From NCBI GenBank assembly GCA_032622095.1, contig CP136064.1, positions 50,908,073-50,972,072 of the forward strand: a stretch of 64,000 bases of DNA, read 5' to 3'. The stretch comes from Siphonodentalium dalli. Taxonomy: Eukaryota; Mollusca; Scaphopoda; Gadilida; Siphonodentaliidae. This document shows, one piece after another, positions 30,338-64,000 of the stretch. Position numbers and translations under genes: made by a program. How positions within the stretch are numbered: position 1 is the first letter of the stretch; each line of letters starts with the position of its first letter. A model generated the notes under the pieces. The model was not told where the DNA came from, did not search any database, and saw only the letters and a program-made list of their open reading frames with translations.

Positions 30338-31690
30338 TTAGACGCAGAGCGAGTGATGCCACTGACAATCCGCCCATTCGATGTGTAGCCGATCGAGTTT
30401 ATCTAGGAGATATTGTGGAGCGCTGTCCCACACTACATCTGAGTAATCAAATAGGGGTAGTATATACGTTTTATAGATAATTTCAATTATTTTTCTGTCA
30501 AGTTGGTACTTCAGGCGCCTTAGTTGGGCTAATCGAGATGCAATCCGATTTACCAGGCCGTCGATATGGGCATTCCAATTGAGGTTTGACTGTAGTTCTA
30601 GACCAAGGTGTTTATGCGTGTCAACAAACGTTATTGTTTCATCAGCGAAATTAAGATCTGGGTGTTTAGTTTTCGGGGGCATTAATGAGAAGAAAATTCC
30701 AACCGTTTTTGTCGGGTTAAAGCTGACCAACCATTTTCGGGACCATGCGGATATTTTGTCAATATCACTATTCATAGCGGTTTCTAATAATTTGATGTCA
30801 TAATGGCTGTTCGTAATGAAAGTGTTATCGGCATACATTCTAGTATCAGATTCTATGTTGTCAGCTAAGTCATTGATATAGACCAGGAACAGGAAGGGTC
30901 CAAGGATTGAGCCCTGTGTGACACCGGAAGGGATGACCTCGTATTCGGAATAAGCATCATTAACTAGTACTCTTTGTTTTCTATTGTTTAAGTAGTCTTC
31001 GAGCCAATATAATGTGTTTCCTTCTAAACCATACGCGCTCAACTTATGAATCAGTCCCCTGTGCCAAACTCTTTCAAATGCTTTAGAGATATCGCAAAAT
31101 ATAGAACATGTAAATAGACTTTTATCAAGGGATTGGCACAGGTTATGATATAAATCTACTAACTGATATGTTGTGTTGTGACCGGGGAGAAACCCAGATT
31201 GATGGAAGTACAGGAGTTTGTTTTCAATAAAGAATTCGCTCATCTGTTTAAGAACCACTTTCTCGAAGATTTTAGCGAGGCACGGTAAAAGGGAAATTGG
31301 GCGATAGTTTTTCGATTCTACGTCGGTTTCTGTAAAAACCAAATTTGGCATTATTTTTTTGCAACGCTTCGGAAAGGTTGCGATGCTATGTTTGGAGTCA
31401 TTAATGGTTGAATTTGCAATACAGCTCTTATTTAGTATTACAGCTTTTTTTTCAGCATCATTTGTTGCATATGTGTGACCGTTTGCTATTATACTGCCTG
31501 TGGGGCTATATAGTGGGGGGATAGTCTTAAATCTTTTCTTATTCAGGAGGTAGTTTATTAGTCTCCAGAAGTCTCTCGGGTTTGAGGATTCTCTTATTCG
31601 CTCTTCCAAATTTTCGTCGAATTTGATTTTCGCGTGTTTTTTCATGTTGTTAATTTTATTTCGGATATTTTTGTAATTTTTCCATAATAT
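30338..31690 (-). pseudogene. LINE reverse transcriptase with YADN active site
   Basis: The 435-residue frame from 31645 (open upstream to about 31700) holds RT motifs in order: NYRPISLLP (113-121), SGFLPGHNT (150-158), FCDISKAF (183-190, catalytic Asp 185), SGVTQGSILGP (240-250) and MYADNTF (270-276). The catalytic YADD is YADN here, a GAC-to-AAC type change that should abolish polymerisation. About 70 residues are missing before NYRPI (between KKIMPN and DVESKNYRP). The C-terminus is frameshifted after LDRLHIE. It is a dead copy. Confidence 0.8.
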
Positions 31691-31704
31691 CGGTTTGTTA
31701 GTTT

Positions 31705-32400
31705 TCAGAGCCTTTTGTCTGAATTAAACCAAATTTTGTCAGATGTTCTGACTGTTACAGTTGATTGTGGGATTGTTTTCTCCATTATAGACAAGAATTC
31801 CGTATGGAAGTTATCGACTGCTTTATTTATATCTGTTGTGTGATTTATTAGGTCATCCCAGTCTACTGATTCGAGTAAGCTATTTGCATGTGAAAAATTA
31901 GCCTTTCTATAATTCCATACCTTTCTTTCGAATGAAGGTCTCCGGGTATTATCGAAAGAGATAGTTGCATAAACACCTAAATGGTCTGAAACTCCGAGGT
32001 CTAAAGTATCAGCGTCTAGAACTTGCATAATCTTGGAGGTAATGATGGGATCGAGGAGAGTACTTGATGTGCTAGTTACTCTAGTGGGAACCGTAATGAC
32101 ATTTTTCATACTGAGACCATCTGTTATTTGTTTGATCTTCGAGGAGCTGTCAAAAAACTTGGAATTGAAATCGCCAGTGATGACTACATTTTCAAATTTA
32201 TCAAGTGCGTCCGAGATTTTGGATTCAAGTAGTTCCCAATAATTTGTGGCACAGAACTGTTCAGATCTATAGGATACACCGAGTATAATGCGGGTTTTTC
32301 TAGAGTGAATTTCAAACCACAAACACGATGAATCAAATTCTAGTTCGGGTTACCGATTGAAAATGAGATGATCCGCAAACATTACGCAAATGCCACCTCC
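31705..32400 (-). pseudogene. LINE endonuclease domain fragment
   Basis: An APE-type endonuclease fragment. Numbered from ATG 32322, GDFNSK lies at residues 50-55 and SDHLGV at 112-117; these are two of the active-site blocks of the exonuclease-endonuclease-phosphatase fold. Reading upstream past an in-frame TAA (about 32351) gives a further in-frame DSNGGGICVMFADH stretch, so the N-terminal catalytic Asn/Glu region is lost at the boundary with repeat A. In this family the domain nicks target DNA for target-primed reverse transcription. The frame ends at a TGA, one base out of frame with the RT that follows. Confidence 0.7.
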
Positions 32401-32449
32401 ATTTGAGTCATGGGACGCTTCAAAGACGTATCATATAATAAACGCTTTC

Positions 32450-32605
32450 TCGATACAATGAAGTGATATGGGCCGTGGTATCACGTCTCGTTTGCGAGGT
32501 CAGATCGCCCCATCAAACTCGCTTCCTGTGGCAACTCGTTTGACACGGCGATCTGACCTCGTCAACTCGGCGTGATACTACGGCCCATATCGATTCACTG
32601 TACCG
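32450..32605. repeat. Imperfect foldback
   Basis: GATATGGGCCGTGGTATCACG and CGAGGTCAGATCGCC are mirrored by GGCGATCTGACCTCG and CGTGATACTACGGCCCATATC. The structure is conserved at 61435-61590 in repeat B. Confidence 0.7.
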
Positions 32606-32912
32606 ATGTATATATAAAGCATCGTGTACAAAACCATCCTAATTTAATACATCCTCTTATAAAAATGTTCTCGATTCATCAATGCGTTCCCAAAGAGAAT
32701 ATATCAATGAACAAAAAGGTGACATTTTAAAGTTGTAGGTCCATCTCCAGCGCACTCGACAACAACTAGACTTATACGTACGATGCTAATGTACGGCGAA
32801 TGAAAAATAACAATATATTTACTGTCGTGCGAATTGGATAGAATCGGGTTGGCAACATGTGTAGATGCCCAAGCGGAAGACGAAGTTTCGATGTGTGGAC
32901 ACAGACCACATG

Positions 32913-33110
32913 CAGGGGCCTGTAAAGCGCTCCGCTGTCCGCCCCCTTTTGCGCTGCCCATATACGCCGCTTCTATATACACGCCTGCTTCACGTTAATG
33001 GTAGGATAATAGGACTATATACCATTAACGTGAAGCAGGCGCGTATATAGTCGCGGCGTATATGGGCAGCGCAAAAGGGGGCGGACAGCGGAGCGCGTTA
33101 CAGGCCCCTG
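32913..33110. repeat. 91-bp-arm GC-rich hairpin
   Basis: Arms 32913-33003 and 33020-33110 run from CAGGGGCCTGTAAAGCGC to the complementary end GCGCGTTACAGGCCCCTG, with a 16-base loop. The arms differ at only a few positions and contain GCGCAAAAGGGGGCGGACAG. The identical structure lies at 62403-62600. It stands out as GC-rich in an AT-rich window. Confidence 0.9.
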
Positions 33111-33269
33111 TGACACAGACTGATGATAAAACATTTCCATGGTGAGATTATACGGGATTTTATACACTATAGCTCAATGTTCTTATTGTTTACTAAAAAA
33201 TGGCGCATTGCTCTTTACAATTAATTTCTTTATGTAAAAAGCCTTATATTTTGTTCACCTTGTATATAT

Positions 33270-33546
33270 AATTTATTGATTGATTGATTTGGGGTTTAAT
33301 GTCGCTTTCAGCAACTATAAGGCCATATCACGACATGTCCAGTTTTAGCGGTGGAAGAATCCGCAAACTTACGGCTAATCCAACAGTGATTTCAATGGCT
33401 GATAAACCATGTGTGGCAACTCCACCAGATAACAATTTCGATTTACAAAGTACATGATGGAAACTTCTGGATTTGAACCCTCAACACCAGCGCTGGAGTA
33501 CGAGACGGTTTGGAGTTGTACCCATAACCGACTGAGCCACCGAGCA
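33270..33546 (-). mobile_element. tRNA-derived SINE
   Basis: On the minus strand a tRNA-like head (A box TGGCTCAGTCGG at 33539-33528, B box GGTTCAAATCC at 33479-33469) is followed by a body. The body ends GTTGCTGAAAGCGACATTAA and CCCC, then (ATCA)n. RNA polymerase III promoter boxes plus a short-repeat tail define a tRNA-type SINE. The CGACATTAAACCCC end is one I associate with mollusc SINEs, possibly RUDI-like, which is inference. The A-to-B spacing (about 49 bases) is longer than in most tRNAs. A second copy lies in repeat B. Confidence 0.75.
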
Positions 33547-33848
33547 CATCGTGTGTATATATACAATTATACACAAAAGTAATATACCTTATTCTATCAT
33601 ACACACGATTCAGCAATATATAAAGGTTTGGTGTGGGTAGTTGGTTGTGCAACACACTCTTTCGACTATAACATAGTCTTCGTTTGATTGATAGAAGCTG
33701 TATAACGAAAGCAATATAGCTATCAATTCAGTTTATATATATTTGATATTGAAGCCATACATGTAACACGATTCACAAACTCAGTTAATCTCGAAATATG
33801 TGGCATAACCAACTTCTGAGATTAATTAGCTTTCGAACGTTCTGTTGA

Positions 33849-35156
33849 CTTGTTCTTCCAATATCCCGAAGGAATTAGATTTTGACAAAAGCCTCTTCAG
33901 AAATGAGATAGTATCAAAGCACCCCACGTCGATTTATTAACCGCCCCGAACAATGACAGCGTCTAGCGCAGTTTAATTGGACAATTTTGAATGGGTCTTC
34001 CGAGTAGACTCTTTGCTATATAGAACTAGATCTTAATTACGAATATGTCAGAATATGCTGCGAGTTCTTATATCTGTCGAGGATATAATGACACCAAATG
34101 CTTTCAACTGCAAAGAAAACTAGGTCAAGTGACTTTTGCATCTTTCGCTCGACCAGCACCCAGCGCAATATATACTATTAGCCTAAAAAGGTCACTGACA
34201 ACACCCCATCCCCTAGTGAGACTTCTACCTTCTACACTGTGCGCACAGTGAAGGTGGCATTTCCTCTATGCAGTAATTCCGTTGATAATCAAATGGGGAT
34301 TATGTGTATGATCAAGCTATTTTCGATATAAGAGTATAATTTAGAACCACATTCCAAACTAGGTCGGTGAGTAGAGCTATTTATGTCTACAAAATATATA
34401 AGGATTAACCCTTTACCCAACAGAACGGCCCTGTGCCGATGCATTCTCTTATATATGCGAGTCGACCATAGGTCGCCTCGCATATATAAGAGAATGCATT
34501 GGCTTGTTCTTCCAATATCCCGAAGGAATTAGATTTTGACAAAAGCCTCTTCAGAAATGAGATAGTATCAAAGCACCCCACGTCGATTTATTAACCGCCC
34601 CGAACAATGACAGCGTCTAGCGCAGTTTAATTGGACAATTTTGAATGGGTCTTCCGAGTAGACTCTTTGCTATATAGAACTAGATCTTAATTACGAATAT
34701 GTCAGAATATGCTGCGAGTTCTTATATCTGTCGAGGATATAATGACACCAAATGCTTTCAACTGCAAAGAAAACTAGGTCAAGTGACTTTTGCATCTTTC
34801 GCTCGACCAGCACCCAGCGCAATATATACTATTAGCCTAAAAAGGTCACTGACAACACCCCATCCCCTAGTGAGACTTCTACCTTCTACACTGTGCGCAC
34901 AGTGAAGGTGGCATTTCCTCTATGCAGTAATTCCGTTGATAATCAAATGGGGATTATGTGTATGATCAAGCTATTTTCGATATAAGAGTATAATTTAGAA
35001 CCACATTCCAAACTAGGTCGGTGAGTAGAGCTATTTATGTCTACAAAATATATAAGGATTAACCCTTTACCCAACAGAACGGCCCTGTGCCGATGCATTC
35101 TCTTATATATGCGAGTCGACCATAGGTCGCCTCGCATATATAAGAGAATGCATTGG
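33849..35156. repeat. 654-bp perfect tandem duplication
   Basis: Bases 33849-34502 are repeated at 34503-35156; the identical frames starting MSEYAASS at 34045 and 34699 give the 654-base offset. The junction reads GCATTGG-CTT-GTTCTTCC. CTT is shared by the donor (TTGACTTGTTC) and the MITE (GGCTTAACAC), so the break used microhomology next to a MITE hairpin. Repeat B has one copy. The small open frame has no known family, and its identity among copies reflects recency rather than selection. Confidence 0.9.
34405..34505. mobile_element. Truncated two-hairpin TTAA MITE (first copy)
   Basis: TTAACCCTTTACCCAACAGA and the first hairpin (to GAATGCATTGGCTT) are present. Then the tandem-duplication junction cuts the element off. 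The full element is at 35059-35459. Confidence 0.85.
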
Positions 35157-35459
35157 CTTAACACATTAAAAATTATAAAATTGTGAAAGAATGTAAGGAA
35201 AAATGGTAAAAAGTGTTAAAAAAAGAATATTTTTTAGGCCAATGCATTCTCTTATATATGCGAGGCGACCTATGGTCGACTCGCATATATAAGAGAATGC
35301 ATTGGCACAGGGCATAACTGTAACTATCACAATGTGGTCAAGGAGCCGATTCCAAAGATATCCATATTTGTATGGTTTTATTGAGACAGTCCCAAGATAT
35401 TTTAGGCTGTTGAAGCTTTATTTGGCCGGTTTTGGCCGGTTTGTCGGGTAAAGGGTTAA
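35059..35459. mobile_element. Two-hairpin TTAA MITE (piggyBac-like), full length
   Basis: TTAA at 35059-35062 and 35456-35459 brackets 393 bp with inverted ends CCCTTTACCC(A/G)ACA. Inside are two near-palindromes of about 66 bp in opposite orientation (about 35092-35157 and 35238-35306), each made of CCAATGCATTCTCTTATATA, a TGCGAG core and GACC-TAGGTCG. The right end also carries a GGCCGGTTTTGGCCGG repeat. A second complete copy is at 47941-48340. Superfamily assignment rests on the TTAA duplication, which is supported by the clean frame interruption at 47941. Confidence 0.85.
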
Positions 35460-38058: not shown

Positions 38059-38470
38059 TTAGTTTTTGGAGTTAAACAATTTAGTAAAATTAACTAAATT
38101 CGGATAATTTCGAAAGAATTTGGGAATATATTTTTTTCTCAGATAATCAAGCGAAGAGCATTGTAAAATACAATGATATTCATCTCCAAGTAACCCTGTA
38201 TTACATCTCGTACATACTCTATCTTTCCGATTGGTATCATTCCATGATCCAGTTTCAATGGGAAGTCTGTGATTGGACAATCGAAATCTAGTAAGGATAT
38301 TTGCATCCTTGCGATTCAAAATTTTCAGATAGTCTTCAAGGCCAAATATTGTTTTCAATTTTTTGTATGTGGTACATTTACTTGATTGTTCCATATTAAT
38401 TTTCCATTGCAGTACGTAATGGTCCTTCAGTGTTTGTTGGACAATATTATTCATATTTACAACATTCCGC
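38059..38470 (-). pseudogene. LINE C-terminal Cys/His domain beyond nested insertion
   Basis: The frame reads NNIVQQTLKDHYVLQWK, ILTRFRLSNHRLPIETGSW, CTRCNTGLLGDEYHCIL and LRKKYIPKFF, the conserved C-terminal tail (TRFR-S-H-LPIE, then a C-x2-C...H...C knuckle) of endonuclease/RT LINEs. It continues the protein broken at 42387, so the plus-strand LINE lies between the two halves. The first ~15 residues of the open frame (from 38505) come from the inserted element. Confidence 0.8.
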
Positions 38471-38513
38471 ACCGCCCCCTCCATACCCCCCCCCCATACA
38501 ACCACATTACCAT

Positions 38514-39312
38514 GCCTCTAAAATACCCATGCTCTACATGCAACAAATCAGTGAGAAAAAATCAAGATGCGTTATGTTGTGACCTGTGTGATCAATGGAA
38601 TCACCTCCGCTGCTCTAAATTACTAAAAACAGATTTCATGAAGCTAGCTAATGATGATAGCCCATGGTTTTGCTACCATTGTAATGAGACGTTATTTCCA
38701 TTTAATCACATGGAGGAAGAGGCACTGTTTCGACTGGCATTATTTGACATGAAACAAGAATATACTCACACAAATTCAAATAAATCATTTTTAATGAACC
38801 CATTCACTCTAAATGATGACTTCCGTGAAGAACATCAAATGGATGATGATGACTACAATTTAAACCCAGTAAATCCTGAAAACTCCTCTAACTATACCCT
38901 CCTTGATGAATTTAACGATAAATTGAAAATAATAAACCAAAATGTGTCATCATCAATGATACACTTCAACATACGTTCACTATTAAAAAATATGGACAAG
39001 TTATCCACTTTCCTGTATACCTGTAGACACAGATTTGATCTAATAGGCGTTACTGAAACTTGGCTTAAGGATGAATCTCCTGTGGATCTAACAAAAATGG
39101 GAAGCTATAGCTTATATGAGAAACACAGTAGTGATAGAGGTGGGGGTGGAGTTGGACTTTATGTACATGAAAGCATTGAAGCACAGGTACGATCAGACTT
39201 GTCTTTGTTCAGTGAGAACTTTGAGAGCTTATTTATTGAAATTCCTGACAAAAAAAATAAATTAAAAAAAATAAGTAGTAGGATGTATATATCGAAGCCC
39301 AAATTCTAATGT
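38514..39312 (+). pseudogene. PHD finger and endonuclease N-terminus
   Basis: From ATG 38514 the protein has a Cys/His PHD-type finger (YPCSTCNKSV, CCDLCDQWNHLRCS, PWFCYHCNE), an acidic linker, then the APE endonuclease start (MIHFNIRSLLKN, LIGVTETWLKD with the catalytic Glu, RGGGGVGLYV). ATG 38514 is preferred because upstream codons derive from the interrupted LINE's antisense strand. A frameshift in the A-rich run near 39250-39275 ends the frame; the endonuclease continues in another frame with GCIYRSPNS. Confidence 0.8.
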
Positions 39313-39634
39313 CGATGACTTTCTTGAAAAACTTGAAACAGTATTAACCCAGATACATAAAGAGAAAAAAGATTGTTTCCTAATGGGAGACTTTAATATA
39401 AACATAAATACTAATAACACCAGCGGAAACAACTTCCTTAACTTACTAAAGTCATTTATGTTCTTGCCATCAATAACGAAACCCACTAGAATAACTGAGT
39501 TCAGTGCAACCCTTATTGACAACATATTCTCCAACTGTCTCCTCTCCTCATCTATCAATGCTGGTATATTCGTGGAAGACATTACAGATCACATGCCTAT
39601 CTACCTCCTTTTGAGCAATGGAACTAAACAATGA
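39276..39634 (+). pseudogene. Endonuclease C-terminal half
   Basis: From about 39276 this frame reads GCIYRSPNSNVDDF, FLMGDFNINI, TLIDNIFSN and ITDHMPIYLLL. The GDFN, D-x-I-F and DH blocks complete the active site begun in the preceding frame. It ends at a TGA that overlaps the ATG of the next frame (ATGA at 39631-39634). This is probably a decay stop rather than a translational coupling signal. Confidence 0.75.
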
Positions 39635-40068
39635 ATAAGAAAGACGTATTTATATGGCAAAGAGACTATTCAAAAAGAAACAAAGAAAATTTTATAACCG
39701 AAATATCCAAAATTGACTGGACTATGGTGTTAGACAACCAGGATTGCAACAAAGCCTACAATTATTTCCACGAAACATTAACAAACATTTACAATAATAA
39801 TTTTCCAAACATCAGAAAGAAAATCAAACCTTCTAATCATTGCAATCCATGGATAACAGCAGGTATACTGAATTCCATTAGAAGAAAGAATAAACTATAT
39901 AAAATATTCATTAAGAACAGAACATACTATAATAATGATCGATACAAGAAGTATAGGAATAGACTAAATTCAATTATCCGTACTGCTAAACAACACTATT
40001 ATCATAGGAAATTCCAACAATATGAAGGTAATATCAATGGCACAAGAAAAAGGGAAGCAAAAATGTAA
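39631..40068 (+). pseudogene. LINE linker between endonuclease and RT
   Basis: A 145-residue frame with the endonuclease-RT linker pattern: WQRDYSKRNKENF, KKIKPSNHCNPWITAGILNS, RRKNKLYKIF and RNRLNSIIRTAKQHYY, which resembles the pre-RT segment of CR1/L2-like LINEs. It runs into a stop after EAKM, while the RT frame (FFYENK...) starts one frame away at 40074. A single frameshift near 40068 therefore separates them. Confidence 0.7.
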
Positions 40069-40073
40069 CAGAG

Positions 40074-41153
40074 TTCTTTTATGAAAATAAATATATTAAT
40101 AACAAAGAGGAAATTGCTACCAAATTCAATGAATTCTTCACCAATATTGGACCAACCCTTGCTTCAAAAATTAAACCTAACAAGAATCCAGCAGATTACC
40201 TTAATCAACCTAAGTGTTCTTCATTCTTTATCCAACCAACAGATGAACTTGAAGTCAAAGAAATTCTCAAAAATATCAGTGCAAAAAAGGCGGCCGGTAT
40301 TGATGATCTCAAGTGTTCAATATTGAAACATTGTAGCTCATTTATTATTAAACCCATTACACATATATGCAATCTTTCTCTTGCTAAAGGAATATTTCCA
40401 GACCTCATGAAGATAGCAAAAGTTGTACCTATTTTCAAAGCTAAAGACCCAACCACATTAAGTAACTACAGGCCAGTATCTGTGCTACCTGTATTTTCCA
40501 AAATCCTAGAAAAAATGATGTACAACCGACTGAACAAATACTTAACCAAATACAATATTCTATATAGAAGTCAATATGGCTTCAGACAGAATCACTCAAC
40601 TATTCTGGCACTAACTGATCTCTTAGAGAAAATTACCCAAGCCCTAGATAATAGAGAACACACCATTGTGGTATTCCTTGATCTATCAAAGGCATTTGAT
40701 ACAATAAAGCATCATATAATGCTAAATAAACTTGAAAACTATGGATGTCGTGGGGTTGCACTGAACTGGTTCCAAAGCTATTTGACTAATAGAAAACAAT
40801 CTGTACAATATGAAGGCCACTTGTCTTCACAAACAGACATAATATGTGGAGTTCCACAAGGATATATACTTGACCCTCTACTCTTTCTGATATATATGAA
40901 CGATCTTCCAAATATTTGTAAGGACCTGAATCTAATATTATTTGCTGATGATACAAATGCATTTTACTCTAATAAAGATATAAATAAGGCATATGATGTA
41001 GTCAACAAAGAAATGGAAACAATGAGCAAATGGTTTCTTGCTAATAAACTATCTCTAAACCTAGAAAAAACTTATTACATGATATTTACGAATACAGATC
41101 TATGCAAAAAAATAACTGTCCTACCCGAGCTCAAGATCAATGAAAAGTCATGA
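40074..41153 (+). pseudogene. LINE reverse transcriptase (FADD)
   Basis: Continuous from about 40074; ATG 40323 is internal. RT motifs: KKAAGIDDLKCSIL, NYRPVSVLPVFSKILEK, QYGFRQNHST, VFLDLSKAFDTI (catalytic Asp), CGVPQGYILDPLLFLIY (canonical SGVPQGSILGP altered at several positions) and LILFADDTNAF with both aspartates. The frame breaks off at INEKS and jumps to MRKISDFIP, skipping the usual KFLGI-x-ID-x-x-L-W stretch, so roughly 40-50 codons are deleted near 41150. Confidence 0.85.
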
Positions 41154-42605: not shown

Positions 42606-44117
42606 TCATGTCTCGCCATATACCATTAGCGATGTTGTACTTGTTTTTACATTTAGGATAAATTTAAAAAAATTTAATTGTAATTTTTCTAGGGATTCTA
42701 GACATCCATAACCCCATGTTTCTGTCCCATATAGTAGGATAGGTTTGACAGTTTTATTGAACATGTCTAACTGACATTCGAATGGCAAGGACAATTGGCG
42801 TATTTTATGGATAAGACCATACATAGATCGGGTAGCTCTTGTAATCAGGTCATTTTTTGCTTTGGTAAACGTGTTTAATTTAGTAAAAATAATTCCAAGA
42901 TATTTGTAATGAGTGACATATTCAATATGTGTTCCATTAATGTATAACTTACGTCTTGGGGTACGGCCTTTTCCGAATACCATAATCTTTGTTTTCGACG
43001 TATTGACATTTAATTTCCAAAATGAACAATAGTCGTCAAAAATGCTCAAATATTTTTTCATATCATTTGTACTTTCTGCAAATATTACAGTATCATCAGC
43101 ATAAAGCATTAAATAAAGTTTTACATACGTTTTAAGTTCATCAGTAATTATCGTTTGCAATCGGTGTAGGCCTGGGACATTATTAGTTTCAAAGAAACTC
43201 TCTAAATCATTGAGGTAGATCGAAAATAAAAAAGATGATAAATTTTCACCCTGGAGCACTCCAGAGTACGTTCTGTAAGTATCTGATGTGTCGCCATTGA
43301 TTCTAACCAGGGATTTGACACTGCTGTACATGTTTTTAATAAGTCTGAAACATCTTCCGTTGATACCAGACGTCAACAATTTTTGCCATAGGCCAGTATG
43401 CCATACAGTGTCAAATGCCTGTTTAAAATCAATGAAGGCACAAAAGAATTTCATTTCGCATTGCTCCATTATTGAACACAAAAAATGTAATGCAACAATG
43501 TTATCAGATGTAGAAAAGCCTTTTCTAAATCCAGCTTGATTACTTTGGAGTAAGCATATTTCATCCGCGTACGCAGTTAATCTAGAGTTAATAATTTTGG
43601 TGAAGAGCTTGCCAAGGCAACTCATTATAGTTATAGGACGATAATTTTCTGGACATAATAAGTCGCCTTTCTTTTTATAGACAGGTACTACGATGCCGGT
43701 TAACCACTGTTCTGGCATAATACCACTTTCAAGTATAATATTGAATAAAAGTACATATACTGGTAACATATCGTCGATAGTCGATTTGATATGTTCGTAT
43801 TTTATTTTGTCAATTCCACTACTTTTATTCCCTTTAAGGCCACGAACGGCATTAATTATTTCATGCTCAGTTATGGGTTTATCTAATGTATCGTTATACA
43901 AATCTATCATGGGTAATTCAATGTCTGCGCAATCTTGTAGATTATTTTCAGACGAGTTTTTCTTGAGATAATCATACATTTCCTCGAGTGGTACTTGTGT
44001 TGGCGTACGTTCTACATTTGAGTTTAAGATTTTCCAGTATTCAGAAATATCATCAGTTTGAACCTGTCGAAGTCGGTTTGCAATATTGTTTTTATAAAGA
44101 GCGACATTTTTTCTCAA
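42606..44117 (-). pseudogene. LINE reverse transcriptase, catalytic residues intact
   Basis: A 503-residue frame with RT motifs: GIDKIKYEHI (101-110), NYRPITIMSC (158-167), QAGFRKGFST (194-203), AFIDFKQAFDTVW (227-239, Asp 230), SGVLQGENLSSFLF (285-298) and LYADDTVIF (338-346) with YADD intact. Thumb and connection sequences follow (KTKIMVFGKG, YKYLGIIF). The GV-x-QGENLS form is typical of a LINE group common in molluscs and cnidarians. A TGA after MVYGE ends the frame. The same frame resumes at once with FPLELDVK, showing a recent nonsense change. Confidence 0.85.
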
Positions 44118-44156
44118 AGTTTTTCTATAAAATTTACTTTTCTAAGTGAGTTCGAC

Positions 44157-44960
44157 TTAAAAATATTGAGAACTGTCTTTGTGGAAGTCACGTTGGGCCT
44201 TTTTTAAATCGCGCCTAGCTTTCGCGCATTCACTGTTAAACCATGGTTTATTATTTTTCGTTCGATCATTCGATTTATTTTGTGCACCAAAAGTTCTGTT
44301 TGCTGCACAACTGAAGAGAGTGCAAATGTTTTCGGAGACAGTTGTAGCAGCATCTTTATCAAATATGTCCGGTTGATCAGAATAAGTGTGTAAAATATCA
44401 ATTAGACTGTTTATATTATCTTTATCCAAGTTGTTTACAAAACTTTCGCGTTTATCCGATAGCCATCTGATTGGTCGATTATTGTTGTGATCAGCACTTG
44501 TCACATTCCGAGTAGCGCTCACTGCACTCGTCACTGGCGAGACACCAAGTGTAACTGTAACGGGTGAATGCACATCGGAATAAACAGCGGAAAAATCTAG
44601 TACATCAAATTGACATATATAATCAAACAATTGAGGCGTGGCAATCACATAGTCAATCACACTTACATTGTTACTTGTTGTCTTACCAATATTTTTGTCA
44701 GCCCCAAGTCGTCCATTTACGATAAAAATACCTTTATTTGCACACATTTCAATGAGCTTTCTGCCATAACTGTTGATTGTGTGATCCAAACTGGATCTTG
44801 TGTCCATAAATAGTTGGGATATGTTAGTAATATATTGTGTGGTGTCAACTGGGACCAGATGGTTAATTTCAGGAGGTGTAAATTCAGGGAGTATACCGCT
44901 TCGAGAATTAAAATCTCCCATTAAGCATATAAGGTTGGAATTGTGGAATCTATCTATCAT
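44157..44960 (-). pseudogene. LINE endonuclease C-terminal half and linker
   Basis: This continues directly, in the same frame, after the TAA at 44961-44963. Endonuclease blocks are LMGDFNSRSG (residues 14-23), SVIDYVIATPQ and SDVHSPVTV, the Asn/Asp/His blocks of the fold. The C-terminal part (WFNSECAKARRDLKKAQRDF) is the linker that precedes RT in LINE proteins. In-frame TAA and TAG codons then separate it from the RT frame by 42 bases. Confidence 0.8.
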
Positions 44961-46308
44961 TTATGATTCTATTTCAACAAAGGCTTCATCTGAGGCATAC
45001 TTGCTACTTTCTGGGGGAATATATACAGTACCAAGTATTACATCTTCGTTTGTAGATAATACAAATTTCGAAATCCGACACCACAATACGTGCTTGCTAT
45101 CAGATTTAATTACATTTACAAATTTTGTCAGTGTGTCTCTTATAAAGAGTGATATTCCACCAGATCTAACTTTACTTAATGACTTTCTGTTTTTAAAGTA
45201 GGAAGTAAAATTTGGTAATACAAGATTATCAGCATCATCAGTTTTTGTTTCACCAAATCCAATTATGTCATATTTATTAATAAAATTGCAAAATTCTGGG
45301 CATACTAGTCTGCTGGCTAAACCACAAACATTCAATGACAAAATATTAACATTATTAGATACACAACAATTTTGCTGGTTCCCCGACCTGTCCCATGGCG
45401 TTGAATTAACTCGTCGTCTCTTTCCTTTCTGATGCCTGTCACTCTGACCATCTGTAACAACCTTGACCTCTGTCTCATCCTCGTCTACATGTATATCTTC
45501 AAGTGGTTCATACAGTCTGTTGTTGATATACAGTTTGTCTTTGACTAATCGCACATTATGTCCTGCTTTCTTTGCGTCTTTTCTAACCGGATACAATTTT
45601 CTCCTCCGTTCTTCTATGGGTGCTGGAAATTGTTCATAGATGAAAAACATTTTGTGCTCAAGTCTATAACTTATTTTTCGGATAAAGTCGCGATCCTTAG
45701 ATCTAGTGAACTTTGCGACGATTGTACGAGGTTTCCCCATCTTTCTTTCACCACAACGATGCACTCGTTCAAATTCAATCTCCTCTGGTCTGGTTAGACC
45801 CAAATCATTGCTCAGAAAACAGTATAATAGTTGCTCAGTTGATCTCTTCGGATCTTCAGGAATTCCAGCAAACAGTAAGTTTTCACGCATGGATCGACAT
45901 TGAAGATCAATAATGGTATCGTACATTTCTTTGTTATTTTTTCGCATTAAGTCAAGCTCTTTTTTAAGCTCGGAATCATTAACAGGAAATGACATCTGGG
46001 GTATTTGGTCACCATTATTAAGTTCAGCCAATGTTTCTTTTATATCATCGTAGTCATTGGATAAGAATTCCATTGCGGTTTCAAGTTTCACGATTTTGCT
46101 CACCGCATCATCAGTAGAAATTTTGAAAGTTTCAACTAAGTTTGAGTTATTTTGTAGCGCAACTGCATTTAAACTGACGTTGCTCTCCAAATGGTCCAAT
46201 TTAGATATTTTTTCTTCTATCGATGTTAATCTATGTCCAATTCGTCTTTCCAAGTCATTTATGTTGTCAATTTTTCTCTCAATTACATCCTCCCTTCTCC
46301 GAACTAGG
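44961..46308 (-). pseudogene. L1-type ORF1 protein fused in frame to endonuclease start
   Basis: Counting from codon 46253: a heptad-like coiled coil (about 1-115), then an L1 ORF1p (Transposase_22-like) RNA-recognition region (about 116-210: CRSMRENLLFAGIPED, EFERVHRCG, TIVAKFTRSKDRDFI) and its basic C-terminal domain (211-250: ERRRKLYPVRKDAKKAG). After an acidic and then a basic linker (KGKRRRVNS) the same frame enters the APE endonuclease (NILSLNVCGL at 303-312, catalytic Glu in GFGETKTD near 335, SGGISLFIRD). L1 normally encodes ORF1p and ORF2p separately; here they share one frame. A TAA ends it. Confidence 0.75.
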
Positions 46309-47001
46309 GCATGAGGTCAAGGGGTTCCCTATGTCAAATGTAGGGATAGCTTAGGGGTGTAATTATAGTCGAAACTGGTGCAGAAATGTACATAATTTAT
46401 TAAGGCATATTGTCAGATTGTATACGTTACACATGCATACCACACCACTCGCATACCGCAGTCACACCTACACAATAACTTAGAAGCAAACATGCAAACA
46501 GAATATGAACACACAAATAACAAAAATGATAAATTACAAGACATAACATCACAAGGCATGCAATGGAGAAAACATATAGGATGACGTAAGTTTGGCACCG
46601 ATGAGGAAACGGTAAAACTGGCACACCCCAAGCATGCTGAAATCTCTGTGTGCGTCGACAAAGAGTTACGTTTAAGGGAATTAGCCCCCAAGCCGAAGGC
46701 CCGCCAAACGGAACGTGAGAGGGGGAACCAAACCCGACGTTAGCAAATGATGCGTTAAATTCTGATGGAGGCAACTAGGTAGGTAGCAACTCACCAACGG
46801 AGAGAAAGAGGGGAATTTTTTTTTTGGACTTGCAGCCTCACAACAGTAGTGAAACAACACAAATCCGTTCCTAGGGCAATAGAAACGATATCAATCACCA
46901 GCAAATAAACAAAATCCCCCACCGACGTAACGAGAACATCGGTGACAGGGCAGACCTCTAACTCACCGATAACGAGTTGCCAACAGCCACTTCTGTAGGA
47001 C
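46309..47001. other. Unassigned sequence between two retroelements
   Basis: A minus-strand frame (46427-46774) with CRRTQRF and ending in a hydrophobic, Cys-rich stretch is open, but I cannot place it. The stretch could be the 3' part of the tyrosine-recombinase element or 5' sequence of the LINE. Confidence 0.35.
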
Positions 47002-47530
47002 TCACTTCAAATGGGCGACTCTTCTATGAAAATTGGATGCCAGTTTTTCTGTCCCGGCGTGATTAAGGTGTAACCCACCGTCCTTGTATGCACACAGCTC
47101 CATCAAGGATGCCCCTGCATGTACCATGTACCTATAGGATTGAAAGAACAATATATTATATTTTGTACAAAGTGATTGTAATTCAGAATTGACATCCCGA
47201 ATGATGGAGTCTGATAGACTGTGATCGACAGGTCTAGGTATTATGGCTGACATGCAAATATTGGCATGCTTGAATGTTTTCTTACACAACGAAATCAGAT
47301 TACAGTAGGCGGATTTAAATTTCTTAATGTCCAGATTGAAAACATCGTTGGTGCCCACGTGAATAATAATATTTCGGAATGTTCCGATGTACTTCGCCTT
47401 CTTCCCGACCTGCCAGGTTATATCTCCAATGCTTGCCCCACGAAACACTAACATTTCGGTCCTTGCTATCTGGACGTATTTGGCAATGGAGTCGGAAATG
47501 ATAACCGTATCACTGTCAGGAAAATGAGAA
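47002..47530 (-). pseudogene. SGNH hydrolase domain of a retroelement
   Basis: The frame is open from about 47530; the first ATG is 47454. Upstream of the ATG it reads VIISDSIAKYV (block I Asp-Ser), then FRGASIGDI, IIIHVGTNDVF (residues 31-39 from the ATG, block III GTND) and KDGGLHLNHAG (124-134, block V with the catalytic Asp/His pair). This is the SGNH/GDSL esterase fold. SGNH domains are known from vertebrate Ngaro-type tyrosine-recombinase retrotransposons. It begins 10-20 bases after the recombinase tail at 47549, on the same strand in another frame. Block I has Ser where Gly is usual (SDS rather than GDS). Confidence 0.7.
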
Positions 47531-47548
47531 AAAAGGGGCGTATATTAC

Positions 47549-47940
47549 TTAAGGGACTAACCCACTAATGATACCGCGACGCATAGCTAACGCGACTCGC
47601 ATATTTTCCTCGGTGGAAAAATTAAGATATTCCTTATACGCGTCACTACGCCAATCTATGATACTGTTGTGAGATAATTCTTGACTAATGTAGTCCCTCA
47701 CGTGTAGTGGGAAGTCTCTGGCTCCTGCATGGTTCCTATGTTTTACTGGGTTTTGTAATTGATCACCTATGAAACCAATTGGAAAACCAAATTCCAGAAG
47801 ATCGCACAAGACAGTGTTTCCATAATTGGTATCCTGTAGCATGGATCTCCAGAAGTCAATATTCAAATTAACCGAAGATTTCAGAGGGAATCTACACCCT
47901 TGATAATTATGTAACCCGGATTGCTTTATTTGCTCATGCA
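47549..47940 (-). pseudogene. YR-retrotransposon pol: RT N-terminus fused by deletion to recombinase C-terminus
   Basis: From the MITE boundary (47940) the frame reads GLHNYQGCRFPLKS, NLNIDFWRSML, LLEFGFPIGF, HRNHAGARDFPLHVRDYI and SQELSHNSII (to about 47657), which resembles the start of the RT region in DIRS-like elements. It then switches directly to DWRSDAYKEYLNFS...VALAMRRGI, which resembles the C-terminus of their tyrosine recombinases (W-x-SDAYK-x-Y with the nucleophilic Tyr). The whole RT core, RNase H and the recombinase body are missing, yet the frame is preserved across the join. The SGNH frame follows at once. Confidence 0.65.
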
Positions 47941-48340
47941 TTAACCATTTACCCAACAGAACAGCCCTGTGCCAATGCATTCTCTTATATATGCGAGTCG
48001 ACCATAGGTCGCCTCGCATATATAAGAGAATGCATTGGCTTAACACATTAAAAATTATAAAATTGTTAAAGAATGTAAGAAAAAATGGTAAAAAGTGTTA
48101 AAAACAGATTTTTTTTAGGCCAATGCATTCTCTTATATATGCGAGGCGACCTATGGTCGACTCGCATATATAAGAGAATGCATTGGCACAGGGCATAACT
48201 GTAACTATCACAATGTGGTCAAGGAGCCGGTTCCAATGATATCCATATTTGTATGGTTCTATTGAGACAGACCGAAGATATTTTAGGCTGTTGAAGCTTT
48301 ATTTGACCGGTTTTGGCCGGTTTGTTGGGTAAAGGGTTAA
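47941..48340. mobile_element. Two-hairpin TTAA MITE inserted in a retroelement gene
   Basis: A full copy of the element at 35059-35459, with TTAA at 47941-47944 and 48337-48340. Both hairpins and the CC(A/C)TTTACCCAACAG...TTGGGTAAAGGG ends are present. It interrupts the tyrosine-recombinase retroelement frame precisely at a TTAA, which establishes TTAA as the duplicated target. Confidence 0.9.
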
Positions 48341-48757
48341 TATAAAGTTAGTCATATCATCATTAGTTTGCTCAGATGCAGAGTATTGTTGAAGACTACA
48401 AATATCACAATTCTGGTGTTTGAATAAAAATTGTTCTATATCCAGAATATCTGATTGTGATAATGCTTTGTCGCAAACATTAGAATTGTTAGAAATGTTA
48501 GACATTTGATAATTATACAGTGCTGCCTGGTGGTTGGTGCCACAAGAATGTTGTGGTGATGGTGAGATGCTACCATTACTAGTAATAATAATAGGTTCGA
48601 TATTAGGTTGAGTGGTCGAAGAATTATCTACATTTAATTCAGGGACGTGACTAAAGGTCAGCTCTTCAGGTAGCATCCATTGAGGTATAAGCTTAATCTC
48701 ATCCGGTTCTGATATGCGATTAACTTGGTTAAAGTGATGTGAAACGTAAATTGAACC
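48341..48757 (-). pseudogene. YR-retrotransposon pol, segment upstream of the MITE
   Basis: Open from about 48757 (after a TGA) through ATG 48676 to the MITE edge at 48341. It contains IPQWMLPEELTFSH, a Ser/Asn-rich stretch, HQNCDICSLQQY and NDDMTNFI. The reading frame is the one used at 47549-47940: removing the MITE and one TTAA joins the two without a shift. This part has no named domain and is probably the variable N-terminal part of the pol (or gag-pol) protein. Confidence 0.55.
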
Positions 48758-48760
48758 TCA

Positions 48761-49539
48761 CAATTGAGTTCCCTGCGTTATTCTGTGGAAAGACTGAATA
48801 AAATAACCCCCATACACGAAATGCCCTAACCAGTTATCAGTTTGTACTAATTATACGGCCACGTAACTAACTATTTACTTTCCCTCAATCGGGACGAATA
48901 ATTCCACTGTAAACGCGAAATAAATACACAAACGAGTTGTCGTGTGCAGTCGCGGAAACACCCGAACACTTCCGACTTGGTCGGGATTGAGTCGGCTTTC
49001 GTTCTCAGAAAATAGCTTCCGTGGAGGGAGGCCGTTTGCTGGAATAGCGTAACATCAGCTTAATAAAACGAAAAACAAGCGGTATAGTCAATTCGAATGG
49101 GAGGGATATAAAAGGAATTATTGCCTGAAATCACCAACGGAAGAACATTGACCGAGTTATGAAAGAATTATAATCAAAGTAGTCATGATCGAGCAATGAA
49201 CAACGGTAACAGTTGAAAATGTTACTATTTATAGAAATTTGTAATCGTTGACCGATTTTATGATCGAACTACAGCAGGTACAGTCTCGTGCAGAAAGAGT
49301 TGTCTTACATGTGTATTTCAAACTGTTTAATTACCTGTGCAATGCTACATGTGTGCCATATTGCTATTCACTATTCTAGTACAGACCGTATTTGTTTGGG
49401 ACAGCGATAGTGGTATAGATATCCATGTGGAATTATGTTTTCTTCAATTTTTGAGTTTATATAGGCCCAAATAAATATACCATAAGATGGACTCAATCAT
49501 TGACAGTTAAAATTGGATGGAAGTAAAGAAGTGTTGTGT
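48761..49539. other. No recognised gene
   Basis: No supported feature was seen between the YR element remains and the palindrome cluster. Confidence 0.4.
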
Positions 49540-50785
49540 ATTTGCACTAAGTAAGCGCAATTGCTTTATGCTTAAGCGCAAATATTTGTATGCAAATAAA
49601 TAATAAATGTAAAAAAGACTCCCATGTGATTTGCTCTAAACTCAAATTAACTCAGGCCACAAAACATTACTCAAACATAGGTGAGGACTCCACCCAGATC
49701 CCATACTAAGATGGATGTTCAGACTGAGGAAACCAGTTGGAGATAGGTACATGTATTTGCTTAAGCATAATTCATTTCAATTACGCTTAAGTGTAAATGA
49801 AATCCACTTAAGCGTAAATGAGTTGCGCTTAACCGTAATTCATATACACCCCCATTGAACTCCACATACTCAAGCTGAAATGGATGCAACCACATTACTA
49901 ATGCCAGTAAGTTAACATACATCAGATTATACAAATATACATATAAGGTAAGACAGCCGATGAAATTATTGCTCTTAATATAATTCCAATGTATTATGAT
50001 AACGCATAAGTCAATTATGCTTAAGCGTAAATGATTACATTAAGCGTAACTGATTTACGCTTAAATGCAATTAGTTAATATAAAATGTGAAAATGAATCA
50101 TTTGCGCTTAAGCGCAAGTATATGTCTATCAATATATTTGCGCTTAAGCGCAAATACCTAACACTCCCTTTATACTTCCCTCTGATTGTGAATGATAGAG
50201 TCCATCTCATAGTATATTATCATGGACCCATAGTAGTAGCCCCATATAATACTGAAACATTGAAGAAAAAATATTTCCATATGCATATATCAGCATCTCT
50301 GTCCCTGGTGTCCCAAGAATTGGTGCTTCACTACCAGAGCTCTAGTATATTTTATTAAAGGGACATCTCCTACACAGATATATACCATTTCCATGGCCAT
50401 AAATATGGAATTCGGGGTTACTGGGGACTCGCTTCCCTCATATGGTGTACTTATTGACTTGAAATTGGGGAAAACCCCAATTTTCATATTATCAGCATCC
50501 CTGTCCCCAAGAATTTGTGTCTCCATCCCAGGGATCTAGTATATTTTATAAAAGAGATATATCCTGCACATATCTCTACCATTTCCATGGTCATAAAAGA
50601 GATATTGGGGTTACTGGGGGGGGGGGGGGGGTACTTCCCTCATATGGTGGGTCTGTGCCATTTAAAATTAATTCAGGGGGGGTGATATCAATGCATATTA
50701 ATTTTTATTTGCGCAAATGATTTACACTGAAGCGCAAATGATAGATGTTATTTTGCGAAATATTTGCGCTTGATCGTAAATGAAT
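49540..50785. repeat. Cluster of TTGCGCTTAAGCGCAA palindromes
   Basis: Perfect or near copies of ATTTGCGCTTAAGCGCAAAT occur at about 49569, 49755, 49781, 49803, 49821, 50014, 50035, 50052, 50098, 50134, 50707, 50725 and 50762, alternating with TACGCTTAAGCGTAA and ATGCTTAAGCATAA variants. The two best are 50100-50117 and 50137-50156. Spacing is irregular, often 17-26 bases within groups. This is either a decayed palindromic repeat or a binding-site cluster. Confidence 0.65.
50291..50690. repeat. ~202-bp tandem duplication
   Basis: CAGCATCTCTGTCCCTGGTG at 50291 and CAGCATCCCTGTCCCCAAG at 50493 begin two copies. Both continue with TCTAGTATATTTTAT, ACCATTTCCATGG and CTTCCCTCATATGGTG. A poly-G run (about 50617-50631) sits in the second copy. 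Confidence 0.8.
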
Positions 50786-59799: not shown

Positions 59800-61393
59800 G
59801 TACGGGAGGCGTTTGACTAATTGTATCTTACAACGTTTCTGCCCAAATCATTGCTGACAGTCTGTGAGTAGATTATTTTCTTACATGTGTGCCACCAAAG
59901 AATCGGCAACAAACGAGTCCAGAAATGTACATAATACGAATGTAAGACTTGTATGCAATAGAGTATTGCCATCAGAGGTGTAAGCGAGATTAACACCAAC
60001 GTCAGGAAATGGTGTTTTGTTTTTGCAGTTGTTTCAGCAAATTTTCAAAATTTCTGCTCAGAGAGTTGGGATTAGCAACGATAAAGCAAATATGTCACAT
60101 GCTACGGGATAAGTCCTATAGAAATTAGGCAATTTTCTCTACGACGGAGACGGACCCTTATATGCATGTGTGTTTCTCCTGCATAATCGAAGAAAACTCT
60201 CATTTATGAGCATCATTGAGAAAATATGCAAGTTCACCAGAGTTCACAGGTTATTTCTCACCTCAGCCATTTTATTTCCGGCTTGGACACCGTCTACACC
60301 ATGTGATATCCAATTTGACTCCTGCTGGTGCGATTTTGTGGTTGGCTGACCCTGACGACACAAGTTTTGAAAGTAATGGGACCATCTGTTATTTGTTTCA
60401 GACCGTCTATAGCTGTTCAGTCTTGGTTCACTCAAACTGATCGACTGCATAATATACTTTAGTATATGACTACCACTATAATAGCCTACAAATATATACC
60501 ACTATTGTTTGGCAATATATTCCTAGCTGTCGGAAAACGCTTGTATGATCCTGAACCGCATCAGTATCCTTTGTAATTGTATCAGTATGGTTTGAAATTA
60601 GGTCACCGGAAGTTTCGGAACTATCTGTCAGGTGTGTTCGTGTGAACCGTCAGCGGGTGCGTTCTATTGCCGGAGTGACTTCGAGATCGGCTGCCGCTAG
60701 TTGCAGCCGGAAGTGGGACCTCGAAGTACCGATGACCAGGATATGTAACGTCACGTTTCCACCATAACCTGGTTGCGAGTTCCCGTAATACCGATCAAAT
60801 CCAAAATGGCGGACACCGAATAAATGAAAAAGGCGGACAATGATTGAATGAATGAAAAAAGTTAATGTGTGGTTGATACATGTATATTTTTATCTTTGGG
60901 TTCGATGGTTGTTTTACGAAAACACATATCTATCTAATTTTATGAAACTATTTTCGAAAAGTGGAGTTATAGTAAATTCGATGATTTTGTTTATATTCCT
61001 AGGCCTATAAGGATATATAAACTAATGTTTATTAGTGCTCCTAAAGTAAAAAATATACAGCATTGGTTCTGATCAACAGATAACCCTATATAGTTTATGA
61101 GACCAGACCCTCAAATTCGATTATTAAATTGCAGGGAATTCATGTTGTTTACTGAACGTGAATTGCAGCATTCGTTATGGCTGCAGCCACGGTCATCGTC
61201 ATTCGGGATTCCTCGGATATGGACATGCGCAGAAATATTTCTGATATCTGCAGCCGATCTCGAAGTCCATCAGGACCAACCGCATAGCGCATTATCGTAT
61301 ATTCATGACAAACGGAAGTAACTTTTCGTTTGTCGGTTCGAAAGTTTCGGACGATGGCATGGGATGGAGTAATGAAGTAGTTTTCCCATGAGG
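59800..61393. other. No recognised gene
   Basis: A few short frames (60216-60440, 61097-61321) lack recognisable content. GCTGCAGCC/AGTTGCAGCC phrases near 60695 and 61180 hint at a diverged repeat. Confidence 0.4.
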
Positions 61394-61836
61394 CATGGGA
61401 CGCTTCAACGACGTATCATATAATAAACGCTTTCTCGATACAATGAAGTGATATGGGCCGTGATATCACGTCTCGTTTGCGAGGTCAGATCGCCGCATCA
61501 AACTCGCTTCCTGTGGCAACTCGTTTGACACGGCGATCTGACCTCGTCAACTCCGCGTGATACTACGGCGCATATCGATTCACTGTACCGATGTATATAT
61601 CAAGCATCGTGCACAAAACGCCCCTAATTTAATACATCCTCTTATAAAAATGTTCTCGATTCATCAATGCGTTCCCAAAGAGAATATATCAATGAACAAA
61701 AAGGTGGCATTTTAAAGTTGTAGGTCCATCTCCAGCGCACTCGACAACAACTAGACTTATACGTACGATGCTAATGTGCGGCGAATGAAAAATAACAATA
61801 TATTTTTTCACTGTCGTGCGAATTGGATAGAATCGG

Positions 61837-62336
61837 CATCCAGAACGAATCAGCATTGTTTTCAAGGGATCGAACAAAACTGCTTTTTGCCTATAAAAGA
61901 CAACTAAACAAGATAAATACAATTGACTAACTAAATATGAGATGAAATACTTTATGCCACAATCCATTTGTAGTTTCGCTACAATAAAAGCAACAAGAAA
62001 CTATAATTAAACTAGGACTAAGTGTGCGTTCATACAATCGAGTTTGCACGGTATGTGTTGCAGGCATTTAGTCGCAGAAAACGATATGGTGCCAGAATAT
62101 GAACGGAAACATGCATGGATATAAAATGAAATTGTACCACAGATAACTACTTGAGAAGTAAAATATATGTTGTTCCACCTGTAGCGTCGCTACTGAAATT
62201 TGCCTGTAATTGTAAATAGCCTGAAATTATCTGACAATAATCAATCATACAGGTGTTTGAAGAAAAATGTCAGTAGCACGATTACATGCATGTGGAAGTA
62301 CAGAAATTTTAATTTGACCATAGTTTCTGTCCAGCG
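61837..62336. other. Extra 500 bp present only in repeat B
   Basis: In repeat A the flanks AGAATCGG and GTTGGCAACATG adjoin. In B they are separated by 500 bases without recognisable coding content, inverted ends or target duplication. It is either an insertion in B or a deletion in A. Confidence 0.6.
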
Positions 62337-62402
62337 GGTTGGCAACATGTGTAGATGCCCAAGCGGAAGACGAAGTTTCGATGTGTGGACACAGACCACA
62401 TG

Positions 62403-62600
62403 CAGGGGCCTGTAAAGCGCTCCGCTGTCCGCCCCCTTTTGCGCTGCCCATATACGCCGCTTCTATATACACGCCTGCTTCACGTTAATGGTAGGATAAT
62501 AGGACTATATACCATTAACGTGAAGCAGGCGCGTATATAGACGCGGCGTATATGGGCAGCGCAAAAGGGGGCGGACAGCGGAGCGCGTTACAGGCCCCTG
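62403..62600. repeat. 91-bp-arm GC-rich hairpin, copy B
   Basis: A near-identical copy of 32913-33110, with one visible difference (TATATAGACGCGG here, TATATAGTCGCGG in A). Confidence 0.9.
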
Positions 62601-62759
62601 TGACACAGACTGATGATAAAACATTTCCATGGTGAGATTATACGGGATTTTATACACTATAGGTCAATGTTCTTATTATTTACTAAACAATGGCACATTT
62701 GCTCATTACAATTAATTTCTTTATGTAAAATGCCTTATATTTTGTTCACCTTGTATATA

Positions 62760-63030
62760 TAATTGATTGATTGATTTGGGGTTTAATGTCGCTTTCAGCA
62801 ACTATAAGGCCATATCACGACATGTCCAGTTTTAGCGGTGGAAGAATCCGCAAACATATAAGGCTAATCCAACAGTGATTTCAATGGCTGATAAACCATG
62901 TGTGGCAACTCCACCAGATAACAATTTCGATTTACAAAGTCCATGATGGAAACTTCTGGATTTGAACCATCAACACCAGCGCTGGAGTGCGAGACGGTTT
63001 GGAGTTGTACCCATAACCGACTGAGCCCAT
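62760..63030 (-). mobile_element. tRNA-derived SINE, copy B
   Basis: The same SINE as 33270-33546 at the same place in the repeat, so it predates the duplication. It has lost the first bases of the tRNA-like head (GAGCCCATCG where A has GAGCCACCGAGCACATCG). B box GGTTCAAATCC and the GACATTAAACCCC tail are intact. Confidence 0.7.
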
Positions 63031-63836
63031 CGTGTATATATACAATTATACACAAAAGTAATATACCTTATTCTATCATACACACGATTCAGCAATATAT
63101 AAAGGTTAGGTGTGGGTAGTTGGTTGTGCAACATGCACTATTATCTTCGCAAGCTTTCGACTATAACATAGTCTTCGTTTGGATTATAGAAGCTGTATAA
63201 CGAAAGCAATATAGCTATCAATTCAGTTTATAGATATTTGATATTGAAGCCATACATGTAACACGATTCACAAACTCAGTTAATCTCTAACTTTGTGGCA
63301 TAACCAACTTCTGAGATTAATTAGCTTTCGAACGTTCTGTTGACTTGTTCTTCCAATATCCCGAAGGAATTAGATTTTGACAAAAGCCTCTTCAGAAATG
63401 AGATAGTATCAAAGCACCCCACGTCGATTTATTAACCGCCCGAACAATGACAGCGTCTAGCGCAGTTTAATTGGACAATTTTGAATGGGTCTTCCGAGTA
63501 GACTCTTTGCTATATAGAACTAGATCTTAATTACGAATATGTCAGAATATGCTGCGAGTTCTTATATCTGTCGAGGATATAATGACACCAAATGCTTTCA
63601 ACTGCAAAGAAAACTAGGTCAAGTGACTTTTGCATCTTTCGCTCGACCAGCACCCAGCGCAATATATACTATTAGCCTAAAAAGGTCACTGACAACACCC
63701 CATCCCCTAGTGAGACTTCTACCTTCTACACTGTGCGCACAATGCGCACAGTGAAGGTGGCATTTCCTCTATGCAGTAATTCCGTTGATAATCAAATGGG
63801 GAGTAGAGCTATTTATGTCTACAAAATATATAAGGA

Positions 63837-64000
63837 TTAACCCTTTACCCAACAGAACTGCCCTGTGCCAATGCATTCTCTTAAATATGCGAGTCGACCA
63901 TAGGTCGCCTCGCATATATAAGAGAATGCATTGGCTTAACACATTAAAAATTATAAAATTGTGAAAGAATGTAAGAAAAAATGTTAATTTTTTTTTTTTT
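63837..64000. mobile_element. Two-hairpin TTAA MITE, cut by window end
   Basis: TTAACCCTTTACCCAACAGA at 63837 and the first hairpin are present; the rest lies beyond the window. The last bases are a T run. Confidence 0.85.

Follow-up and report, generated by a model that had tools for sequence, protein, structure and literature searches.

Probable remains of an SGNH-bearing, Ngaro-like tyrosine-recombinase retrotransposon with an internal deletion

We propose that a minus-strand locus in a 64,000-nt stretch of DNA (the window, meaning the whole stretch that was analysed) is probably what remains of an SGNH-bearing, Ngaro-like tyrosine-recombinase (YR) retrotransposon, a dead copy with an internal deletion. 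The intact parent would have consisted of gag, reverse transcriptase (RT)/RNase H and YR, followed by an SGNH frame. Roughly 2.2 kb from the start of RT to the end of YR is missing by comparison with four relatives, and the reading frame would have been kept across the gap by chance. Later, a MITE jumped into a TTAA site of the frame that remained. All retrotransposon parts lie on the same strand (Table 1). As a decayed copy the locus is ordinary; the position of its SGNH frame and a possible intron ahead of it are moderately interesting.

Table 1. Parts of the retrotransposon copy and of the element inserted into it, in window coordinates
Feature	Coordinates	Strand	Basis
Upstream part of retrotransposon frame (linker before RT, or gag end)	48341-48757	-	open, no recognised domain
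MITE within retrotransposon frame	47941-48340	.	inverted repeats, palindromes, TTAA ends, further copies
RT N-terminal region, ending exactly where the RT core would start	47657-47940	-	profile of 5 relatives
Join of internal deletion	47656-47657	-	spacing in 4 relatives
YR C-terminus with catalytic Tyr region, stop TAA at 47551-47549	47549-47656	-	profile of 4 relatives
Predicted 49-nt intron	47513-47561	-	frame check and splice-site ranking
SGNH (GDSL) hydrolase frame, 180 codons and stop	47002-47544	-	Pfam, PDB sequence, Foldseek

Retrotransposon remnants and the inserted MITE

An earlier, sequence-only reading of this DNA had described RT-side sequence running into a YR end within one open frame, and this description is borne out. 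The frame 48097-47549 (minus strand) holds the RT-side peptides LLEFGFPIGF and NHAGARDFPL as well as the YR end DWRSDAYKEYL, with no stop and no frameshift between them, and profiles built from relatives back both pieces. That the whole of this long frame belongs to the retrotransposon proved true only from 47940 downward; approximately its first 53 codons are not retrotransposon, because 47941-48340 is a separate MITE. This MITE has imperfect terminal inverted repeats, two inner 69-nt palindromes and TTAA at both ends (47941-47944 and 48337-48340), an arrangement that we take to be piggyBac-like. Another full copy is present at 35058-35459 (96.3% identity over 402 columns, matching 47940-48340), along with partial copies at 34404-34505 and 63836-63987; remote kin were seen at 29587-29768. 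When the flanks of the MITE are fused at a single TTAA, one open frame of 270 codons results; it takes in the upstream frame and then the RT-side stretch, and closes at the YR stop. The upstream part belongs to a stop-to-stop frame (48757-48299, minus strand) of which the portion 48340-48299 is MITE; the remainder continues in frame into the RT-side stretch once the MITE is removed. A Pfam search with the upstream part gave no match and a PDB search nothing better than E 0.12.

The window contains several other repeats. A 661-nt tandem duplication with 99.8% identity (33845-34505 and 34499-35159) is either recent or an assembly artefact, and a two-part duplication of about 96% identity (448 and 1,486 columns) links 32404-34302 to 61389-63805. 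The left edge of the window, at 1-1332, is a tandem array; its unit is about 454 nt long, and it also has a 118-nt repeat. Short imperfect palindromes around CTTAAG are clustered at 49551-50156, with inverted repeats at 49419-49505 and 50187-50288, and perhaps represent another non-autonomous element.

Pfam and PHROGs searches recognized neither the RT-side nor the YR-end piece, and their identification comes from relatives. A YR-end pattern found 42 loci in genome contigs, and YR retrotransposons are present in two of them, L061 and L063; the translated surroundings of the other 40, read by eye, showed none. Judging from their gene content, L061 and L063, with gag-like, RT and YR frames, are evidently eukaryotic DNA in bacterial MAGs, L063 being a contig of a Flammeovirgaceae MAG. 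In both, the YR-end motif stands after HSLRRGGA. Genome searches with the RT of L061, L063 and L076 yielded the new relatives G206 (2/395, one being the seed), G520 (2/398, one being the seed) and G841 (1/369), and further RT searches of genomes added nothing (1/398, the seed; 0/148; 0/4). No relative emerged from protein scans of viral contigs with both frames, or from a protein scan of genome contigs. Degenerate RT-side patterns matched 22 and 4 stretches of the viral contigs, all by chance, degenerate RT-core patterns one chance stretch and none, and a degenerate YR-end pattern none. Neither phages searched with the SGNH frame nor plasmids searched with the RT-YR frame gave a match.

A profile search of the translated pieces had been suggested as a check, and it matched the RT-side and YR-end pieces through the relatives' profiles and the SGNH frame through Pfam. 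The RT-side profile of five relatives reached 18.8 bits (E 1.2e-4) and the YR-end profile of four relatives 17.4 bits (E 2e-4). None of 10,000 shuffles did as well in either case (6,719 and 5,800, respectively, were scored at all), and each piece ranks best under its profile among the 693 window frames of 40 aa or more. These results argue for the retrotransposon reading, as does the support for the SGNH domain from Pfam, PDB and fold comparison described below. Counting against it, a first RT-side profile made from L061 and L063 only was unsuccessful, at 0.1 bits, a score equalled or bettered by 493 of 3,906 scored shuffles. The score was 11.7 bits with L076 and L078 added (0 of 3,497 scored shuffles as good; 5,000 made), and rose to 18.8 bits once the G841 relative had been added too. 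The three added relatives were picked by likeness of their RT to L063, L061 or L076, not to the window. Pairwise comparisons of the RT-side piece, which likewise weigh against this reading, were weak for L063 (38/1,000 shuffles as good), L061 (136/1,000) and L078 (72/1,000), and clear with L076 only (0/1,000).

Origin of the internal deletion

Four relatives have both places, and in them the RT-side piece ends 2,207, 2,210, 2,243 and 2,262 nt before the YR motif, while in the window the two touch; hence about 2.2 kb is missing at the join. What the window copy has lost comprises the RT core, RNase H and most of YR. That an internal deletion also occurs in L061 favors the proposed history. There, within L061:1-5234, a complete YR retrotransposon copy lies beside another one, offset in register by about 4.2 kb, which has lost around 670 nt, so that RNase H runs into mid-YR, out of frame, at a join marked by a short repeat. 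Since one of these two joins is in frame and the other is not, and one third would be expected in frame by chance, the frame at the join says little. On the other side of the balance, 270 and 180 codons are still open, and a dead copy might be expected to show more decay.

The deletion could instead have arisen in RNA, by splicing or by template switching before reverse transcription, and not in the chromosome. We consider this unlikely, if worth keeping in view: a strong acceptor-like sequence in another part of the element (see below) indicates that splice signals may be used, and there is nothing direct at the join.

It is less probable still that the locus belongs to a family of short non-autonomous derivatives, descended from a deletion product that retained both ends and the frame and was multiplied with the help of full-length elements. 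The sequence-only reading had suggested that the in-frame join could mark such a derivative, and both sides of the join are indeed open. However, this interpretation found no support, given that chance alone would put a third of joins in frame and that the deleted copy in L061 has a different join, out of frame. Moreover, a search of the window for other copies joined at about 47657, also suggested earlier, found no second copy of the retrotransposon. Terminal repeats were sought in several forms, and that none were found speaks against the family and against the preferred reading alike. For split direct repeats (A1 ... B1-A2-B2), the best match between 46300-47002 and 48200-49600 had an E of 0.19, and within 45800-50500 no long direct pair and no inverted pair was found flanking the element; in both respects the copy may be truncated. 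A search for inverted pairs, such as those of the inverted terminal repeats and internal complementary region in DIRS-like elements, returned nothing beyond chance.

The SGNH frame and its possible link to the recombinase

Returning to the deleted YR retrotransposon as the preferred reading, the SGNH frame had been placed directly after the recombinase, and the analysis bears this out at 47544-47002 (minus strand), with support from Pfam, PDB and fold. The motifs DSIAKYV, HVGTND and DGGLHLN all fall in this frame, and the chance of 180 open codons at the base composition of the window is about 5e-6. Pfam Lipase_GDSL_2 matches at E 2e-7 and 32.1 bits, just under its cut-off of 32.9, and in PHROGs the frame is matched by phrog_14008, whose function is unknown (E 2.9e-8). 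By sequence, the best solved structure is PDB 4c1b, a zebrafish LINE ORF1 esterase (E 1.3e-6). A single-sequence AlphaFold model was of low confidence (mean pLDDT 52.0) and Foldseek aligned it to no chain at E 0.001 or better (best E 2.4e-3; 4c1b_B 1.2e-2). A two-sequence model, also of low confidence (mean pLDDT 53.3), matched 12 chains at that level, the PAF acetylhydrolase 3dt6 being the best (E 1.5e-4). As predicted structures, both models resemble GDSL/PAF-acetylhydrolase folds. Of the residues typical of SGNH hydrolases, Ser, Gly, Asn and His align with 4c1b, but Asp is offset by one, standing four residues before the catalytic His where three are expected. With Asp displaced in this way, the sequence makes esterase activity of the window copy doubtful.

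We also asked to which element the SGNH frame belongs. It could be part of another element, for example the LINE at 46316-42606 on the same strand, whose kin may carry an esterase in ORF1. The best PDB sequence match is indeed a LINE ORF1 esterase, and this LINE has an RT (RVT_1, E 5.2e-38). However, the SGNH frame opens 4 nt past the YR stop and falls 685 nt short of the LINE frame. The first LINE frame presumably encodes an L1-type ORF1, a reading without Pfam support, which also counts against this origin. In addition, SGNH is paired with YR retrotransposons in L063 and in Xenopus (PMC9210276). Taking the gap, the adjacency to YR and these pairings together, we rejected the LINE origin as very improbable. 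The LINE itself spans 42606-46316 (minus strand) in three consecutive frames, with an endonuclease matched only at E 0.009; by eye, other LINE-like frames were seen on both strands at 30338-32349 and 38386-41153. A host gene built from retrotransposon pieces is the least plausible explanation of the joined frame and was discarded, since despite the open stretches of 270 and 180 codons a 400-nt MITE brings stops into the frame, the head of the upstream frame has no ATG and the Asp of the triad is displaced.

For the YR-SGNH pair, the expectation that the two frames stand side by side holds as to strand and spacing; the SGNH frame is nevertheless offset and not continuous with that of YR. It opens only after a second stop (47547-47545), which follows the YR stop (47551-47549), and it has no ATG ahead of the catalytic Ser. 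The two frames do not overlap, and a plain ribosomal frameshift therefore cannot link them; this route was ruled out. The minus-strand stretch 47561-47513 opens with GTTAGT and closes with CAG after a run of pyrimidines, and dropping it joins YR to SGNH in frame. Ranked among the 6,179 AG sites of the window, its acceptor falls in the top 0.18%; its donor, set against 7,285 GT sites, reaches only the top 9.3%. In-frame donor/acceptor pairs of equal quality were present in 17/20,000 random segments and 3/5,000 dinucleotide shuffles, in a test that was designed after the candidate site had been noticed and that used approximate splice score tables. For an animal intron, 49 nt is short.

These observations are suggestive of an intron, in which case the intact element may give YR from unspliced RNA and a YR-SGNH fusion from spliced RNA. 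The plain alternative is that decay removed the ATG and changed the frame. Tentatively, and with the odds somewhat against it, we suggest that the parent made SGNH only as a YR-SGNH fusion, by way of a retained 49-nt intron: unspliced RNA would serve as genome and as message for a YR ending at its own stop, and removal of the intron would provide the message for a membrane-acting fusion, comparable to the splicing by which retroviruses express a downstream gene. In the intact parent, whether or not fused to YR, the SGNH domain would aid the RNA-protein complex at membranes, as has been argued for LINE esterases. If the predicted intron is real, it offers a simple route to two products from one RNA.

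Comparison with known systems

How closely the window copy can be classified depends on what the deletion left. The YR that characterizes the DIRS order is represented by a C-terminal piece only (17.4 bits), and RT/RNase H by only the stretch before RT (18.8 bits with five relatives, with the failure of the two-relative profile noted above), the core and RNase H being deleted. The region between RT/RH and YR, where a methyltransferase would lie, is gone as well. Since this region is deleted and split direct repeats were not found, the term 'Ngaro-like' rests on likeness. Part of that likeness is the order of the frames, with SGNH after YR as in Xenopus Ngaro-like elements. As regards the genome in which the copy resides, the observed/expected ratio of CpG is 0.95 over the window and ranges from 0.73 to 1.15 in eight 8-kb blocks; vertebrate genomes are CpG-poor. 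This lack of CpG depletion makes a non-vertebrate host likely, which falls short of establishing the invertebrate one assumed in the sequence-only reading. Searches of the window for tRNA genes and for Rfam families at gathering cut-offs found neither.

Among the relatives found, L063 resembles the window copy in combining gag, RT and YR with a similar SGNH frame, and the recurrence of this combination favors the proposed parent. In L063, however, the SGNH frame precedes gag, whereas in the window copy it follows YR. The contig begins inside this frame, whose C-terminal part lies at L063:3-331; the last 96 residues of the frame end 37 nt ahead of the first gag ATG. The Pfam match of this SGNH piece (E 2.9e-6) is below the cut-off and its best PDB match is E 0.058. 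Compared with the window SGNH, 23 of 87 residues are identical, with E 4e-8 as a single comparison, a value that falls to E 0.0155 when a whole genome is searched. The kilobase that follows the YR of L063 showed no SGNH. The L063 lineage may have captured or relocated the domain separately; alternatively, the frame may be the last part of an element in front of gag, truncated by the contig end. The position before gag, and the lack among the relatives found of any full-length copy with SGNH after YR, both count against the proposed parent.

The closest published counterparts are the Xenopus Ngaro-like elements DIRS-53_XT and DIRS-54_XT, which, as far as their published description was available to us, are YR retrotransposons with an SGNH frame directly after YR (PMC9210276). 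They bear out the statement of the sequence-only reading that SGNH is documented in vertebrate Ngaro-type elements. Both have complete gag, RT/RH and YR in overlapping frames, whereas the middle of the window copy is deleted. DIRS-53_XT has split direct repeats, in contrast to the window copy, for which none were found (PMC9210276). Unlike the overlapping frames of the Xenopus elements (PMC9210276), the YR and SGNH frames of the window copy are apart, with stops and a predicted intron between them.

SGNH domains also occur in retroelements of unrelated types, namely LINEs, LTR elements and Ngaro-like elements (PMC3905857, PMC5408684, PMC9210276). The esterase of ZfL2-1 ORF1 (4c1b), which has been assayed for esterase activity and for binding of lipids, is like the window SGNH in its fold and in its aligned Ser, Gly, Asn and His; unlike the latter, it is part of a non-LTR element, and its Asp stands three residues before His (D279 and H282) instead of four (PMC3905857). 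Bdelloid LTR retrotransposons carry a GDSL domain as an extra ORF3, which is another instance of a GDSL/SGNH domain acquired by a retrotransposon (PMC5408684). These are LTR and not YR elements, and they are likened to the window copy by domain type, sequences not having been compared (PMC5408684). Ngaro elements themselves have been counted in invertebrates, with 53 in a mollusc and 114 in a cnidarian, in a paper whose main text, as available, is without the word 'hydrolase' (PMC4157794). Among the matches listed from the open-licence literature, none describes an SGNH domain in a YR element outside amphibians, the group for which the Ngaro-like case was reported (PMC9210276). Set beside these published accounts, as far as they could be consulted, the window copy, from a genome without CpG depletion, and L063 together suggest that SGNH domains in YR retrotransposons are more widespread, and occupy more than one position.
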